Origin: Cystobacter fuscus
Lineage (GTDB): Bacteria > Myxococcota > Myxococcia > Myxococcales > Myxococcaceae
Length of the DNA stretch: 64,000 nt
NCBI RefSeq assembly: GCF_002305875.1
Contig: NZ_CP022098.1
Span: 5,642,001-5,706,000, forward strand
Direction of reading: 5' to 3'
The notes under the pieces: model-generated
Seen by the model: only the letters and a program-made list of their open reading frames with translations
Told to the model about the DNA's origin: nothing
The model's database searches: none
In this document: in pieces, positions 36,615 through 44,848 of the stretch
Layout of the letters: each line of letters opens with the position of its first letter
Position numbering within the stretch: position 1 is the stretch's first letter
Translations under genes and position numbers: made by a program

Positions 36615-37781
36615 ATGATGACGCCGACAGAGCCCGCCAGCGCCACCGTCGACACCGCCGCTCCGCCCGTGCCCGCGCCCACCCCGGCCGCCACGCCGCG
36701 CACGGAGGTCTCCAGCCTGACCCTGGAGGGGCTCACCCGCTTCCTCACCGAGCAGCTCGGCGAGCGCGCCTTCCGCGCCGGCCAGCTCTACCGGTGGCTC
36801 CACCAGCGCGGCGCCACCTCCTTCGACGAGATGACGGACCTGTCCAAGGCCCTGCGCGAGAAGCTCAAGGCCCGCGCGGAGATCGTCCCCCTCGTCAAGG
36901 ACGCCGAGCAGCGCTCGGTGGACGGCACCATCAAGTACCGCTGGAAGACCCGGGACGGCCGCTACATCGAGTCCGTCTACATGCCTTCCGAGGATCGCAA
37001 GACGCTGTGCGTGTCCACGCAGGTGGGCTGCGCCATGGCGTGCACCTTCTGCATGACGGGCACGCTCGGCCTCAAGCGCAACCTCACCCCGGGGGAGATC
37101 GTCGCCCAGGTGCACGCGGTCAACCGCGAGGTGCGCAGGAACGAGAGCCTGGAGACCCTGCGCCCGCTCTCCAACCTGGTCTTCATGGGCATGGGCGAGC
37201 CCCTGCACAACTTCGAGAACCTGAAGACGGCGCTCTCCATCCTCCAGTCCCAGGACGGGCCCAACTTCAGCCACCGCCACATCACCGTGTCCACCGTGGG
37301 GCTCGTGCCGATGATCGAGCGCTTCGGGCAGGAGACGGACGTGAAGCTCGCCATCTCCCTCAACGCGAGCACCGACGAGCAGCGCTCCAAGACGATGCCC
37401 GTCAACCGCAAGTGGAACATCGCCGCGCTGCTCGACGCCTGCCGCAAGTTCCCCCTGCGCCAGGGCCGCCGCATCACCTTCGAGTACGTGCTCCTGCGCG
37501 ACTTCAACGACTCGGACGAGGACGCCGCGCGCCTCATCCAGCTGCTCGACGGCATCCCCGCCAAGGTCAACCTCATCCCCTACAACGAGAACCCCGGCCT
37601 GGGCTTCCAGACGACCATGGACGAGCGCGCCGAGCGCTTCCGGGAACTGTTGTGCGCCGGGCACGTGGCGGCCTTCATCCGGCAGAATCGGGGCCGGGAC
37701 ATCGCCGGCGCCTGTGGCCAACTGGCCAACCGGGGAGGGGAGAGTCCCTCGGAAACGCCGCAAAGCCCCGAGCTTCCTTGA
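36615..37781 (+). CDS. rlmN: 23S rRNA (A2503-C2) / tRNA (A37-C2) methyltransferase
   Basis: 388 residues. A radical-SAM enzyme with CxxxCxxC (CAMACTFCM), GMGEPLHNFENL and a C-terminal cysteine (FRELLCAG, with a later C in GACGQL) used in the ping-pong methyl transfer. The first 30 residues are Pro/Ala-rich and not conserved. ATG at 36618 is an equal alternative. Confidence 0.93.
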   Translation: MMTPTEPASATVDTAAPPVPAPTPAATPRTEVSSLTLEGLTRFLTEQLGERAFRAGQLYRWLHQRGATSFDEMTDLSKALREKLKARAEIVPLVKDAEQRSVDGTIKYRWKTRDGRYIESVYMPSEDRKTLCVSTQVGCAMACTFCMTGTLGLKRNLTPGEIVAQVHAVNREVRRNESLETLRPLSNLVFMGMGEPLHNFENLKTALSILQSQDGPNFSHRHITVSTVGLVPMIERFGQETDVKLAISLNASTDEQRSKTMPVNRKWNIAALLDACRKFPLRQGRRITFEYVLLRDFNDSDEDAARLIQLLDGIPAKVNLIPYNENPGLGFQTTMDERAERFRELLCAGHVAAFIRQNRGRDIAGACGQLANRGGESPSETPQSPELP

Positions 37782-39835: not shown

Positions 39836-40228
39836 ATGCGTCGCAGCGCTATCGAGTACGTGGAGGCCAAGAACCTCCGTCAGGACGTCACCGCTTTCCA
39901 AACGGGTGACTCGGTTCGAGTTCACTGGAAGATCAAGGAAGGCGACAAGGAGCGCGTGCAGGCCTTCGAGGGTCTCGTGATCCGCAAGACGCGGGGCTAC
40001 AACCGCGCCACCTTCACCGTGCGCAAGGTGTCCTTCGGCGTGGGCGTGGAGCGCATCTTCCCGGTGCACAGCCCCCGCTACGAGAAGATCGAGGTCCTCA
40101 CCCGCGGTCACGTCAACCGCAACCGCCTCTTCTACATCCGCAACCTCAAGGGCAAGGCCTCCCGCGTGGAGAGCCAGGAGGACGCGGAGATGCGCCGCGC
40201 CGCCAAGGCCCACCAGGCCAAGGCCTGA
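39836..40228 (+). CDS. rplS: Ribosomal protein L19
   Basis: 130 residues. [37 protein letters not shown] and YYIRNLKGK-like [14 protein letters not shown]. It lies 122 bases after trmD, then a strong terminator ends the operon. Confidence 0.97.
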
Positions 40229-40262
40229 GTCGACTCCGGCCTGCCCGGCCGGTCTCTTTTTG

Positions 40263-40294
40263 GGGAGCGCCCGTTCAGGGACGCTCCCTTTTTT
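40263..40294 (+). terminator. Intrinsic terminator after rplS
   Basis: GGGAGCG/CGCTCCC (40263-40269 with 40282-40288) around a 12-base loop, followed by TTTTTT. Confidence 0.9.
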
Positions 40295-40324: not shown

Positions 40325-42271
40325 ATGCACTTCGTTGAGCTCGCCGTCCAGAATGTCCGGGGGTTTTCCCCCGCCGGCCGTTTCGCCCTGAAAACCGGGT
40401 ACTTCGTGCTCAAGCCGCCCACGGCGGAGCCGAGTCCGCTGTCCGGGTTGACACTCGCGTTGCTCTACGCGGATGGCCGAGGCGGGGATGCCGCCTTCTC
40501 CGTCTCCGCGCAGAAGCCGGGCAAGGGCGCCTTGACGTTCGTGGGGCAGGACACGCTCACCTACCGCGTGCTGCGGGAGATGGGCGGAGGGGGCACGCTG
40601 CATCGGCTCAACCCCACCACGAAGCAGCCCGAGCTCGTGACGCAGGACACCGGCGAGGCCAATCAGTTCCTCCGTGGTCAGGCGGGGCTGCCGCCGCGCA
40701 CCACCTTCGAACAGCTCTTCACCCTCCAGGCCGCGCAGCTGCCCTCGCGTCGGCCCCGCTCCGGCGGACGCTCGATGTCCACTCCGGGCATGCCCGCCGC
40801 GAGGACGCTGTCCTCCCCGGGCATGCCCGCCGTGCGGACGAGTTCCTCGTCGGGCCTCGCCGCCGCGCAGTCGGTGCTGCCCGCCTCGGACATCCCCGCC
40901 GCCGAGGCCAGGCAGCGCGAGTTGGAGAAGGAGCTCGTGCTCTGCAAGGAGGTGGACAACCTCCAGTTCGAGGTGGACGGACTCAACTCCCAGGTCTTCA
41001 GCCTGGAGTCGAAGCTGCGCAGCACCGAGCCGCTCAAGGAGAAGGTGCGCGAGGCGGAGGCGCTGTGGAACGCCGAGCCCACCCCCGAGTCCATGGGCCT
41101 GCCCGCGGACATCGTCGCGCGCGCCGAGCGCTATGGCCGGGTCCTCGCCCGGCGCGACGAGGCGCTCGCGCGGTTGATGTCCGAGAAGGAGGTGGCCGAC
41201 GAGGAGGCCGCGCGTCTGCCCGACGTGGAGCCCCTGGTGCGCAACCGCAACTTCTGGATCGCCGTGGGCGTGGGCGTGGCGTGCCTCATCGCCAGCTTCT
41301 TCGTGCCCAAGGCGGTCCGCTACGTGGCGCTGTTGGACGTGCCCGCCTTCGGCTTCGCCGCCGTGCTCGCCCTGCGCTTCGTGGAGGAGCTGCAGGACAA
41401 GGATCGGGTGGCGCGCCGGGGCGAGATGTTCGTCGCGCGCGAGAAGAAGATCGCCGAGGAGTTCGAGGCCGAGGCGGGCCCCGTGCGCAAGGCCATGGAG
41501 GTGTTCGACGTGGACACCCCCCAGGACATCCCCCCGCGCCTGCAGCGCCGCGAGCAGCTCGGTTCCACCGTGGCCGAGCTGCGCACGCAGCTCATCTCCC
41601 AGGAGAAGCACCCCGACTTCATCGACGCCGCAAACCAGCTGCCCATCATCCGCCAGCAGATCGAGCTGCTCAACGCGCAGATCGAGCAGAAGGGCTCCTT
41701 CGTGCGCGACCTGCGCGAGGTGGAGCGCGAGCTGAGCCGGATCAAGGACTCCATCGCGCTCGCGCGCAATCCGCACATGGCCGGGGGTGCCGTGCCGGGC
41801 ATGGAGACGGCCGCCCACGGTCCGCAGGCCCTGGAGGATCCCTCGCCCCAGTTGCTGGGGCTCGCCGGAGATCTGCTCGCCACGGACATCCAGGCCGTCA
41901 TGGGGCTCGCCCGGGAGCGGTGCGTGCAGTACTTCAGCGCGCTCACCGAGCGCCGCTACACCGGCGTGGAGTGGGATCGGGATGGACGCACCTCCGTGCT
42001 CGGGGCCTCGGGCCGGCGCCTGCCGCTGAGCGAGCTGCCTCCTCGCGAGGTGGATCTCTTCTTCCTGAGCCTCCGGCTGACGTTGGTGGAGAAGGTGTGC
42101 GCCCGCGTGAAGCTGCCGCTCATCGTCGAGGACGCCTTCATCGGCGTGGACGAGTCCCGGCTGCCCCTGCTCGGCCGGATGCTCAAGCACCTGGGCACGA
42201 TCACGCAGGTGCTCCACGTCACGCCGCTCGCGGGCTTCCCGCAGCTGTCGGACGGGACTGTCAATCTGTAG
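40325..42271 (+). CDS. SMC/YhaN-like coiled-coil membrane protein lacking a Walker A motif
   Basis: 648 residues. The first 140 resemble the N-terminal lobe of SMC/Rad50-type ATPases (LAVQNVRGF...), but where the P-loop should be (residues 31-42) the sequence is KPPTAEPSPLSG, with no GKS/T. A Q-loop-like FTLQAAQLP remains. Coiled coil (190-260), two membrane helices (about 310-350), more coiled coil (370-480), then a C-terminal lobe with an ABC-like signature (LSELPPREVDLFFLSLRL) and Walker B (LPLIVEDAFIGVDESR). Residues 148-180 hold two copies of a PGMPAxRT unit. Function unknown; ATP hydrolysis is doubtful. Confidence 0.65.
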   Translation: MHFVELAVQNVRGFSPAGRFALKTGYFVLKPPTAEPSPLSGLTLALLYADGRGGDAAFSVSAQKPGKGALTFVGQDTLTYRVLREMGGGGTLHRLNPTTKQPELVTQDTGEANQFLRGQAGLPPRTTFEQLFTLQAAQLPSRRPRSGGRSMSTPGMPAARTLSSPGMPAVRTSSSSGLAAAQSVLPASDIPAAEARQRELEKELVLCKEVDNLQFEVDGLNSQVFSLESKLRSTEPLKEKVREAEALWNAEPTPESMGLPADIVARAERYGRVLARRDEALARLMSEKEVADEEAARLPDVEPLVRNRNFWIAVGVGVACLIASFFVPKAVRYVALLDVPAFGFAAVLALRFVEELQDKDRVARRGEMFVAREKKIAEEFEAEAGPVRKAMEVFDVDTPQDIPPRLQRREQLGSTVAELRTQLISQEKHPDFIDAANQLPIIRQQIELLNAQIEQKGSFVRDLREVERELSRIKDSIALARNPHMAGGAVPGMETAAHGPQALEDPSPQLLGLAGDLLATDIQAVMGLARERCVQYFSALTERRYTGVEWDRDGRTSVLGASGRRLPLSELPPREVDLFFLSLRLTLVEKVCARVKLPLIVEDAFIGVDESRLPLLGRMLKHLGTITQVLHVTPLAGFPQLSDGTVNL

Positions 42272-42313
42272 CGCACGAGGCCCCGAGAGGCGGGGCCGCC
42301 GGGGAGGGTGGGG

Positions 42314-42697
42314 ATGGAGCGGGAAGGGACGAGGGGCGAGCGCAAGCAGTACGGGGACGAGGGCGAGGAGGCCGCGGTGCGCTTCCTGGAGACCCAGGGC
42401 TATCGGGTGCGGGCGCGCAACTACGCGTGCCGCCACGGAGAGCTGGACGTGGTGGCCGAACGCGGGGATACCGTGTGCTTCGTGGAGGTGCGGATGCGCT
42501 CCACGGCGGTGTGGGGAGACCCTTCCCACACGGTGTCCTTCGCCAAGCAGCGCAGGGTCGTGAAGGCGGCCATGCACTACCTGATGGCGCACGGCGTGCG
42601 AGATCGGGAGCTGCGCTTCGATGTCATCTCGGTGGTGGGCCGCGGCGAGCGCGCGACGGTGGAGCACCTGCCGGGCGCCTTCGACGCCGGCATGTGA
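42314..42697 (+). CDS. YraN/UPF0102 family protein (endonuclease fold)
   Basis: 127 residues. A small restriction-endonuclease-like fold with GELDVVAERGDTVCFVEVRMR, matching the GExDxxA...FVEVK catalytic pattern. Role in DNA repair or uptake is suspected in the family but not established. GGAGGG before ATG 42314. rsmI follows after eight bases. Confidence 0.88.
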   Translation: MEREGTRGERKQYGDEGEEAAVRFLETQGYRVRARNYACRHGELDVVAERGDTVCFVEVRMRSTAVWGDPSHTVSFAKQRRVVKAAMHYLMAHGVRDRELRFDVISVVGRGERATVEHLPGAFDAGM

Positions 42698-42705
42698 GGC
42701 TGTCG

Positions 42706-43536
42706 ATGTCGGGAACGCTCTATCTGGTGGCCACGCCCATCGGGAACCTGGGGGACGTGTCCTCGCGGGCACTCGAGACGCTGCGGCAGGTGGCCTTCGT
42801 GGCCTGCGAGGACACGCGGCACTCGCGCGTGTTGTTGGAGCACTTCGGCATCGCCGCGGACACGGTGAGCCTGCCCGCCTTCGCCGAGGGCCAGCGCGCC
42901 GGTCGCATCCTGGATCGGCTGGTGGCCGGCGAGGACTGCGCGCTGGTGACGGACGCGGGCAGCCCCGGTATCAGCGATCCCGGCGAGAAGCTGGTGGCCG
43001 AGGCGCTCGAGCGCGGCGTGAAGGTGGTGCCCGTGCCCGGTCCCACGGCGTTGGTGGCGGCCTTGAGTGCCTCGGGCCTGCCCACCGGGCGCTTCCACTT
43101 CCTGGGCTTCCTGCCGCGCAAGGGCCCCGAGCGCCAGGCCATGCTGGAAGAGGTGGCCCCTCTGTCCGCCACGCTCGCCCTCTACGAGTCACCGCGCCGA
43201 CTGGCCGAGACGCTCTCCGACTTGCGCGACGCGCTGGGCGAGCGGCGCGCGGTGGTGGCGCGCGAGTTGACCAAGGTGCACGAGGAGTTCGCTCGCGGCA
43301 CGCTCGGCTCGTTGGGCGAGCGCTACGCGGCCGAGGAGCCCCGGGGAGAGGTGGTGGTGTTGGTGGAGGGGCGCACCGGCGAGCACCGCTGGAGCGAGGA
43401 GGAGCTGCTGCGTGCGCTGGAGGCGGGGCTCGGCCGGGGCGACAAGCTCAAGCCCCTGAGCACCGAGCTGGCCCGCCGCGCCGGTTGGTCCGGTCAGGAC
43501 GTGTACCGGCTCGGACTCGGGCTCAAGAAGCGCTGA
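42706..43536 (+). CDS. rsmI: 16S rRNA (cytidine1402-2'-O)-methyltransferase
   Basis: 276 residues. Tetrapyrrole-methylase fold: LVATPIGNLGDVS, CEDTRHSRVLL, TDAGSPGISDPG and YESPRRL. It works with RsmH on the decoding centre. Start ATG at 42706 coincides with the homology start. Ends 11 bases from a convergent gene with no terminator in between. Confidence 0.95.
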   Translation: MSGTLYLVATPIGNLGDVSSRALETLRQVAFVACEDTRHSRVLLEHFGIAADTVSLPAFAEGQRAGRILDRLVAGEDCALVTDAGSPGISDPGEKLVAEALERGVKVVPVPGPTALVAALSASGLPTGRFHFLGFLPRKGPERQAMLEEVAPLSATLALYESPRRLAETLSDLRDALGERRAVVARELTKVHEEFARGTLGSLGERYAAEEPRGEVVVLVEGRTGEHRWSEEELLRALEAGLGRGDKLKPLSTELARRAGWSGQDVYRLGLGLKKR

Positions 43537-43547
43537 AGGCGCCTCTT

Positions 43548-44771
43548 TCAGAAGGTGAAGTTGATCGTCGCGCTGAAGTGCAGATCCCTGCTCCCGACGG
43601 CGTAGAAGCGCCCCCCGGGCTGATCCCAGGTGGGATTGAAGTTGGGATTGCGGTCCTCCGGCTTGTTGGCGACGTCCAGGAAGTCCACCTTGCCATCGTC
43701 GTTGGTGTCCCGGCCCACGGACTCGGCCGTGAGGGCGTGGTCCGTGTTGTAGAGGAACGAGGCCGTGCCGCGGAACGAGATGTACTCGTTGAGCTGGAAC
43801 GTCGCGCCGAGCTGTCCTCCCAACTGGAGGTACTCCGAGGAGTAGAGCAGCTTGCCCAACGCACCGCTCAGCTCGTTGTAGTAGCGGCCCGCGGACACGA
43901 AGTTGCTCACGACGCGCGCGTCCAGCTTGAGCATGCGCGCGGACCGGTCTCCAACCTGGAACTCCGAGCCCATCGTCACGCCCACCACGTGCGGCGCCTG
44001 GATGCCGGTCTCTCCTCGGCTCCACCCGGGCTTGCCACAGTTCTCCGGGGTGCCCATGCCCAAGGTGTTGTCGCAGTTGGAGTAGGCAAACGGGCCGCGG
44101 ACCGGGATGGTGTAGGCCACATTGAAGTAGGGCTCGGCCAAGCCGATCTTCCGCGAGAGCGCCGTGGACAGAGTGTACTTGTGCACCCGGTCCCCGACCG
44201 TCGTGCGGTCGGTCGCCGCGGTGTCGTAGCTCGGATCGAACGCCGGAGCCGTGGGCGCCTCGTAGTTGAGGCGCGCCACCCACGTGGGCTTGGTGTCGTC
44301 CTTGCGCTGGTTGAAGATGGCCCACCCAAGGCCGAAGCGCGCGTTGCCCAGACCCCAGCGGTACACTCGCAGACCCCTGGAGAGGTCGATGTCGGAGATG
44401 TCCGCGCGTGGGCCTTGCTCGGCTCTCGGGCGGTTCCAGTACTCGTTCTGCAGGAGCACCAGCGGTAGGCCGAAGGAGAACTCCACGTCCCGGGAGATAC
44501 CCACCGCCAGGTCGAGGTTCAGCCGGGCCTCGTATCGCCCGTACTCCAACGCATCGCGGAGCTGGGGCGTGGCACTGCCGTCGGGAGTGGCGACGGACGT
44601 CTCGCGCACGATCCTCGAGTTGCGCTGTGCGTACTCGACGCCCGCGTCGATGAAGAGCCCGAAGGGATCATCATCCTCGAAGGAAGAAGCGACGCGGGTG
44701 ATGTCCGCCGCCGTGGCGGCGAAGGGCACCCCCAGCGTCAGGACGGCGGCAACGGCGCGAAGCCTGGACAT
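43548..44771 (-). CDS. Outer-membrane beta-barrel protein candidate
   Basis: 407 residues with a signal peptide (cleavage near ATA-AD), many alternating amphipathic strands and a C-terminal aromatic (INFTF), the signature recognised by the BAM complex. A loop near residue 360 contains DTNDDGKVDFLD, a canonical 12-residue calcium-binding (EF-hand/dockerin) loop. Start ATG at 44769-44771 has a near-perfect GGAGGT site. Cargo or ligand unknown; it may be a porin or structural barrel. Confidence 0.7.
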   Translation of the reverse strand: MSRLRAVAAVLTLGVPFAATAADITRVASSFEDDDPFGLFIDAGVEYAQRNSRIVRETSVATPDGSATPQLRDALEYGRYEARLNLDLAVGISRDVEFSFGLPLVLLQNEYWNRPRAEQGPRADISDIDLSRGLRVYRWGLGNARFGLGWAIFNQRKDDTKPTWVARLNYEAPTAPAFDPSYDTAATDRTTVGDRVHKYTLSTALSRKIGLAEPYFNVAYTIPVRGPFAYSNCDNTLGMGTPENCGKPGWSRGETGIQAPHVVGVTMGSEFQVGDRSARMLKLDARVVSNFVSAGRYYNELSGALGKLLYSSEYLQLGGQLGATFQLNEYISFRGTASFLYNTDHALTAESVGRDTNDDGKVDFLDVANKPEDRNPNFNPTWDQPGGRFYAVGSRDLHFSATINFTF

Positions 44772-44848
44772 CCGACCTCCGTTAATCACACCCCCCGGCA
44801 AGCACACCCAACCGCCTAACCCCCGGGAAATGTTGAGAAATTTCGGGG

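Follow-up and report, generated by a model that had tools for sequence, protein, structure and literature searches.

The window, i.e. the whole 64,000-nucleotide stretch of Cystobacter fuscus DNA analysed here (contig NZ_CP022098.1, positions 5,642,001 to 5,706,000), contains a gene for an SMC-like protein in the order rlmN, rpsP, KH protein gene, rimM, trmD, rplS, SMC-like gene, UPF0102 (YraN) and TP_methylase (RsmI), in which the families were assigned by Pfam and some of the short gene names are those that we presume to apply. The reading frame of the SMC-like gene was re-checked, which confirmed the open reading frame and coordinates of the first-pass annotation, and the gene is present as a single copy in the host genome of 12.35 Mb (Table 1). 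Its position next to translation genes, also pointed out in that annotation, is held across the phylum: in 116 of 123 testable loci the gene is directly preceded by rplS (9 in lineage f11, where all nine have it, 12 in other deep lineages and 95 at order level, with duplicates between the collections), with a median gap of 81 nt, and two further loci had too little upstream sequence. The seven loci without an rplS match include L037 and L106, which, judging from their equal length, are probably one contig, and three of the four f25 loci. According to a consensus scan, there are four terminator-like sites in a 3151-base region of the window, against 1.3 expected from shuffles, and terminator-like hairpins occur in 50 of the 116 rplS gaps (48 order-level, two other, none in f11). 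Such hairpins are present in the window as well, so cotranscription with rplS is not implied. On the other side, among the testable loci, a UPF0102 gene comes directly next in 65 of 79 at order level, in 6 of 12 of the other deep ones and in 0 of 8 in f11, while 25 further loci had too little downstream sequence. Elsewhere in the neighbourhood, the RlmN-type radical SAM protein (window 36615-37781) has two similar proteins in the same genome (G000:C1:2227476 and 11109924, 41% and 36% identical), and a convergent reading frame of 419 amino acids (window 43548-44807, - strand), in which a signal-peptide-like start was noticed by eye, yielded no Pfam match over the 418 residues scanned at E 1e-5.

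Table 1. Position of the SMC-like gene, the parts of its product and the adjacent features in the window
Feature	Coordinates	Strand	Basis
Gene for a 648-aa putative membrane-tethered SMC/Rad50-like pseudo-ATPase	40325..42271	+	ORF, orthologues, dN/dS
Head N-lobe, aa 1-145	40325..40759	+	model secondary structure; dN/dS 0.08-0.21; profile alignment to P-loop-bearing orthologues
Former Walker A loop, aa 30-41, KPPTAEPSPLSG	40412..40447	+	between strand 26-30 and helix 39-47; aligned to GDSGAGKST of L187
Low-confidence linker, probably disordered, aa 146-189	40760..40891	+	pLDDT under 50 at 146-183
Ascending coiled coil, aa 190-297	40892..41215	+	model helices 190-232, 235-250, 263-297
Predicted membrane helix 1, aa 308-326	41246..41302	+	model helix; hydropathy peak 310-328 (2.2)
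Predicted membrane helix 2, aa 329-352, continuing into descending coil	41309..41380	+	model helix 329-394; hydropathy peak 334-352 (1.85)
Descending coiled coil, aa 353-481	41381..41767	+	model
Head C-lobe, aa 507-648	41843..42268	+	model; Rad50 profile match; AAA_27-type profile match
ABC signature position, aa 571-577, LPPREVD, not LSGGE	42035..42055	+	profile matches, aligned rows
Walker B equivalent, aa 597-605, LPLIVEDAF	42113..42139	+	profile alignment, aligned rows
rplS (ribosomal protein L19), directly upstream	39836..40228	+	PF01245
Two terminator-like hairpins between rplS and the SMC-like gene	40236..40289	+	consensus scan only
UPF0102 (YraN-type) gene, downstream	42308..42697	+	PF02021
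TP_methylase (RsmI-type) gene, downstream	42706..43536	+	PF00590

By protein search, 56 of 59 genomes, counting the own genome, have the gene, and a profile of 38 rows gave matches with E up to 0.001 in 169 of 195 genomes searched in the phylum, a figure that is slightly too high since a few of the weakest matches are other or unclear proteins (e.g. L207, 57 bits). The family is unannotated and nearly phylum-wide, and no name for the gene or the family was found in open-access titles and the beginnings of abstracts, searched without the M. xanthus locus tag. The order-level alignment consisted of 46 full-length rows, 11 other rows (fragments and one paralogue) having been dropped beforehand, and 28 deeper rows were added, among which L202 is without the C-lobe and L192 without its end. 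A second set comprised 49 loci from named records, several of them from the same genomes as the first set. The nearest named relatives found were Archangium lansinium and A. violaceum (76% identity in the best segment, 77 and 78% over the alignment), in a scan that may have left out records very near the window. The gene is under purifying selection: against L002-L005, dN/dS was 0.25-0.37 overall, 0.08-0.21 in the N-lobe and 0.26-0.29 in the C-lobe, with 0.68-1.72 in the hairpin (four comparisons with few changes) and 0.43-1.94 in the linker 481-508, and between L011 and L013 it was 0.04. No internal stop was seen in any family match among the matches listed. An orthologue was not found in the nearly complete genomes G022 (99%, 2.7 Mb) and G048 (96%, 3.0 Mb), which indicates that the function is dispensable in some lineages. 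G022 belongs to the genus g20 (with G156 and G157; 2.1-2.7 Mb), a small-genome lineage of the same taxonomic family; the order-level profile A1 gave no orthologue there, and only marginal matches to the f11 profile A4 were obtained in G156 and G157 (E 5e-4 and 6e-4). The f17 orthologues are longer (L199, L203 and L206 with 1025, 848 and 754 aa), and in these the profile match is interrupted ahead of the C-lobe; they contain about 330, 130 and 100 additional residues, respectively. Moreover, L067 (BNCN01000016.1), titled Comamonas sp. KCTC 72670, contains the same myxobacterial gene cluster, with a protein 54% identical to the window protein; the title or the assembly looks wrong.

The window sequence alone gave nothing significant, the best E values being 0.046 in Pfam, 0.056 in NCBIfam (RecN, residues 596-635) and 0.89 in PDB. 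Profiles of the family were built from the P-loop-less order-level proteins (A1, 38 rows) and from the P-loop-bearing f11 proteins (A4, 9 rows), and the two matched each other over their full length (probability 100, E 9e-97, 627 columns). Against PDB, A4 matched Rad50 in both lobes with a best E of 1.3e-7, and A1 matched the Rad50 C-lobe with E 7e-9, so the claim of the first-pass annotation that the head is a relative of SMC proteins is confirmed by the family profile. The C-lobe profile also matched the AAA_27 type (E 6e-13). Individual f11 proteins exceeded the Pfam cut-off for AAA_23 (5/9) and AAA_29 (3/9), and 8 of 38 order-level rows matched SMC_N at E up to 1 (best 0.0013). In the Pfam scan, no AAA_27 domain above the cut-off was obtained for the window protein, and two of the nine f11 proteins matched it below the cut-off. 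PADLOC gave a single match for the window protein, LmuB with E 0.063 over the coil stretch 375-477, and the two f11 proteins and one AAA_27 protein scanned matched numerous ATPase models, often over the P-loop end; such matches provide no evidence for a defence role.

An AlphaFold2 model from 32 sequences reached a mean pLDDT of 83.7 and a pTM of 0.49, the latter meaning that the arm geometry is uncertain. The lobes are mostly at a pLDDT of about 90, with lower values of 75-81 at residues 51-70, and the low-confidence stretches are 146-183 and 486-500. From the N-terminus, the model has strands 2-9, 17-21 and 26-30, the former P-loop, helix 39-47 and the remaining N-lobe, followed by the coils (190 to 481), whose turn holds helices 308-326 and 329-394, and then the C-lobe 507-648. 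This strand, loop and helix order is the same as in a Rad50 head. The lost loop was placed between strand 26-30 and helix 39-47 in this prediction of the head, a check that had been proposed at the outset. Both the profiles and the predicted model thus give a two-lobe head with an antiparallel coiled coil between the lobes. Neither the hinge of SMC nor the zinc hook of Rad50 was found at the tip of the coil, which is interrupted instead by a hydrophobic hairpin (308-352) according to hydropathy and the model. The central hairpin is predicted to insert in the membrane on the basis of hydropathy and helix prediction, in agreement with the coiled coils and two central membrane helices described in the first-pass annotation. 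In the columns of residues 300-365, two hydropathy peaks over 1.5 were present in 44 of 74 rows and one in 30 of 74, so that in many rows the second helix is of weak hydrophobicity.

At the place of Walker A the N-terminal sequence of the window protein reads LKPPTAEPSPLSGL, without a P-loop. There is no GK[ST] anywhere in its 648 residues, which bears out the loss of Walker A noticed earlier and rules out a P-loop elsewhere in the protein. The motif GxxGxGK[ST] is absent from the window protein and from all 46 order-level rows. Over the columns that correspond to window residues 25-46, all nine f11 rows show GxGK[ST], against 0 of 46 rows at order level and 0 of 19 in the other deep lineages, and lysine at the P-loop lysine column has exactly the same distribution (9/9, 0/46 and 0/19). 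Likewise, GxGK[ST] was found at residues 21-50 in none of the 47 named-record proteins that hold the N-terminus, a set that overlaps the 46 order-level rows. Twelve further GK[ST] matches were detected in ten rows outside f11, all at other positions. The replacement loop is proline-rich, and L29, P32 and P38 are among its invariant residues in 12 closer rows (38-78% identical). Whether all orthologues lack the P-loop therefore has a divided answer: it is missing in the 46 order-level and 19 deep rows, but intact in the nine f11 proteins. Orthologues with an intact Walker A had been named as the observation that would speak for a local mutation; they do exist, and at the same gene position beside rplS (9 of 9), but a local mutation of the window strain is ruled out, as the loop is absent from 46/46 order-level and 19/19 other deep rows. 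G34, G36, K37 and the Walker B Asp648 do not vary among the aligned f11 proteins. Since f11 keeps both GxGK[ST] and the Walker B aspartate, an ATP-binding form of the family probably exists there, and the window protein is probably a derived pseudo-ATPase of the SMC/Rad50-type ABC-ATPase fold, judging from sequence and model. No P-loop paralogue beyond the AAA_27 protein was found in the own genome, where the A4 profile finds only the window locus and, weakly, that protein.

The other ATPase motifs were followed over the 74 rows (46 order-level and 28 deeper, with L202 lacking the C-lobe). The signature and the Q-loop-like motif, both listed as kept in the first-pass annotation, could not be upheld. 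The signature position reads LPPREVD, and Ser 572 together with Gly 574, as in LSxG, occurs in 0 of 74 rows, f11 included; there is no conserved Q-loop glutamine either, as position 138 is Gln in 22/46 order-level and 2/9 f11 rows and position 135 in 11/46 and 0/9. Walker B is kept in part: of the 74 rows, 67 have an acidic residue at position 602, but only 33 have Asp there, and the window protein carries Glu602-Asp603 in place of the Asp. At position 603, Asp occurs in 33 of 46 order-level rows, and all nine f11 rows have the Walker B aspartate. With acids retained at 602-603, the protein may still bind some ligand. Gln is found at 628 in 72 of 74 rows, and the columns conserved family-wide in at least 85% of the 74 rows include E5, Q9, R19, G25, R81, L92, P123, P140, R532, D577, E589 and Q628. 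As these best-conserved columns are kept with or without the P-loop, they would point to a shared function that is independent of it. Taken together, we hold with high confidence that the head is of the SMC/Rad50 type and that it has lost the P-loop. Despite its Rad50/SMC-like descent and appearance, the protein fails on the ATPase features tested and is therefore not named an SMC ATPase or YhaN here.

The loss of the P-loop is old, since the loop is missing from all 46 order-level orthologues and all 19 deeper ones outside f11, as read from the alignments. In an unrooted family tree of 68 rows, f11 forms one side of a branch, and the rows with the loop group together. A tree of the flanking proteins RpsP, RimM, TrmD and RplS, rooted on E. 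coli, covered 39 of 54 loci with one f17 row, 15 loci with too little sequence having been left out. In that tree, the loop-less f17 and f31 branch outside f11 and the class of the window (supports 89/71 and 97/95), a topology that would require two or three losses, or else one regain. A tree with all loop-less rows in one clade was not rejected (p-AU 0.1), so there may also have been a single loss. The P-loop is present in the wider Rad50/AAA_27 superfamily, and the AAA_27 proteins here show GPNEAGKS/T; on this presence rests the view that it was lost rather than gained, with a regain in f11 as a formal alternative. As a tentative scenario, to which we give slightly less than even weight, this would be a vertically inherited family of membrane-tethered SMC/Rad50 heads, carried by most of the phylum, whose ancestor dropped the signature and most of whose lineages then dropped the P-loop, perhaps several times independently, so that the arm became constitutive at the inner membrane without ATP, with f11 preserving the nucleotide-binding intermediate.

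Considering these features, we favour, with moderate confidence, a nucleotide-independent, membrane-tethered scaffold derived from a pseudo-ATPase SMC/Rad50 head as the overall best explanation, while the scaffold mechanism on its own seems to us evenly balanced between right and wrong. The signature would have been lost first in the family, and with it the ATP-sandwich cycle, because even the P-loop-bearing f11 orthologues lack it; the P-loop would then have been free to drift away. The hydrophobic hairpin would insert in the inner membrane with the head facing the cytoplasm, and the arms may hold the head roughly 15 nm or less from the membrane, because the ascending helix has 108 residues, with breaks. 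The head would serve as a nucleotide-independent docking or dimerisation module, and the scaffold would tether a partner, protein or DNA, to the membrane. The 'structural, non-hydrolysing' character proposed in the first-pass annotation is likewise a putative one. SMC/Rad50 heads are thought to need ATP-driven engagement, and a loop-less head together with loop-keeping orthologues at the same gene place offers a natural comparison of heads without nucleotide. It also marks an unannotated gene in most searched genomes of a phylum of predatory and social bacteria, and the gene can be deleted and tagged in Myxococcus xanthus.

Several other explanations were weighed. That nucleotide or other ligand binding persists in the head, in a non-canonical pocket using the residual Walker B acids, appears rather unlikely: the acidic residues at 602 (67/74 rows) and 603 (Asp in 33/46 order-level rows) would fit it, as would the f11 relatives with both Walker A and the Walker B Asp, but the Walker A lysine is missing in all 46 order-level and 19 other rows, there is neither an LSxG signature nor a conserved Q-loop Gln, and the loop is proline-rich. 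We also regard it as rather improbable that the protein is a regulator which pairs with an active SMC-like ATPase, e.g. of the AAA_27/YhaN type in the same genome, and blocks or tunes it, as has been proposed for SMCL-1. An intact AAA_27 protein with GPNEAGKS is indeed encoded in the own genome (G000:C1:11070679), and there is the precedent of an SMC-like head predicted to be non-hydrolysing that binds and regulates condensins (PMC5373644). However, strong AAA_27 matches (over 60 bits) occur in 20 of 59 genomes, against 56 of 59 for the family, no AAA_27 match with E up to 0.001 was obtained in G018 and G035, both of which have the family, and the AAA_27 gene and the SMC-like gene are far apart in the own genome. 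A role in ribosome function or translation at the membrane is unlikely; the place directly downstream of rplS in 116 of 123 loci would be its main argument, but a hairpin separates the gene from rplS in 50 of the 116 loci (48 order-level) and in the window, and the place is accounted for just as well by a vertically inherited gene order. It is very unlikely that the head docks the UPF0102/YraN product of the next gene, which belongs to a predicted nuclease family, by analogy to the docking of Mre11 by Rad50: the two genes are adjacent in 65/79 order-level and 6/12 other deep loci, but in 0/8 testable f11 loci, and as the neighbouring RsmI-type gene usually accompanies yraN in other bacteria, the adjacency may be a matter of these two genes. 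The view of the gene as a non-functional, decaying relic, for which the loss of the ATPase motifs could be cited, is rejected by the dN/dS values (overall, in the N-lobe and for L011 against L013) and runs against the matches in 169 of 195 genomes and the lack of internal stops among the matches listed.

Compared with known systems, the putative scaffold shares with Rad50/SbcC (AAA_23, PF13476; PDB 3qkr, 1ii8 and 3qf7) the head split into N- and C-lobes on an antiparallel coiled coil, together with the C-lobe profile match (E 7e-9) and the f11 orthologues above the AAA_23 cut-off (5/9). It differs from Rad50 in having no Walker A, signature or conserved Q-loop Gln, and in the predicted membrane hairpin that replaces the zinc hook; moreover, there is no Mre11-type gene among the scanned neighbours, the next gene being UPF0102. 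The second relative is the YhaN type (AAA_27, PF13514), to which the C-lobe profile matched with E 6e-13. These proteins have about 1000-1080 aa with GPNEAGKS/T and LSRGTREQ, whereas the window protein shares neither this length nor these motifs and gave no AAA_27 match; in one of them, L053, a hydrophobic stretch in the middle of the coiled coil was seen by eye only. The intact member of the own genome (L165, G000:C1:11070679-11071263) has about 1068 aa, GPNEAGKS and LSRGTREQ, with an AAA_27 score of 103.9 bits. The third is SMCL-1, an SMC-like condensin regulator of C. elegans (PMC5373644). Like the window protein, it has an SMC-derived head predicted to be unable to hydrolyse ATP. SMCL-1 has kept Walker A, lost the signature and Walker B residues and has no coil or hinge, while the window protein shows the opposite pattern, without Walker A but with the coil.
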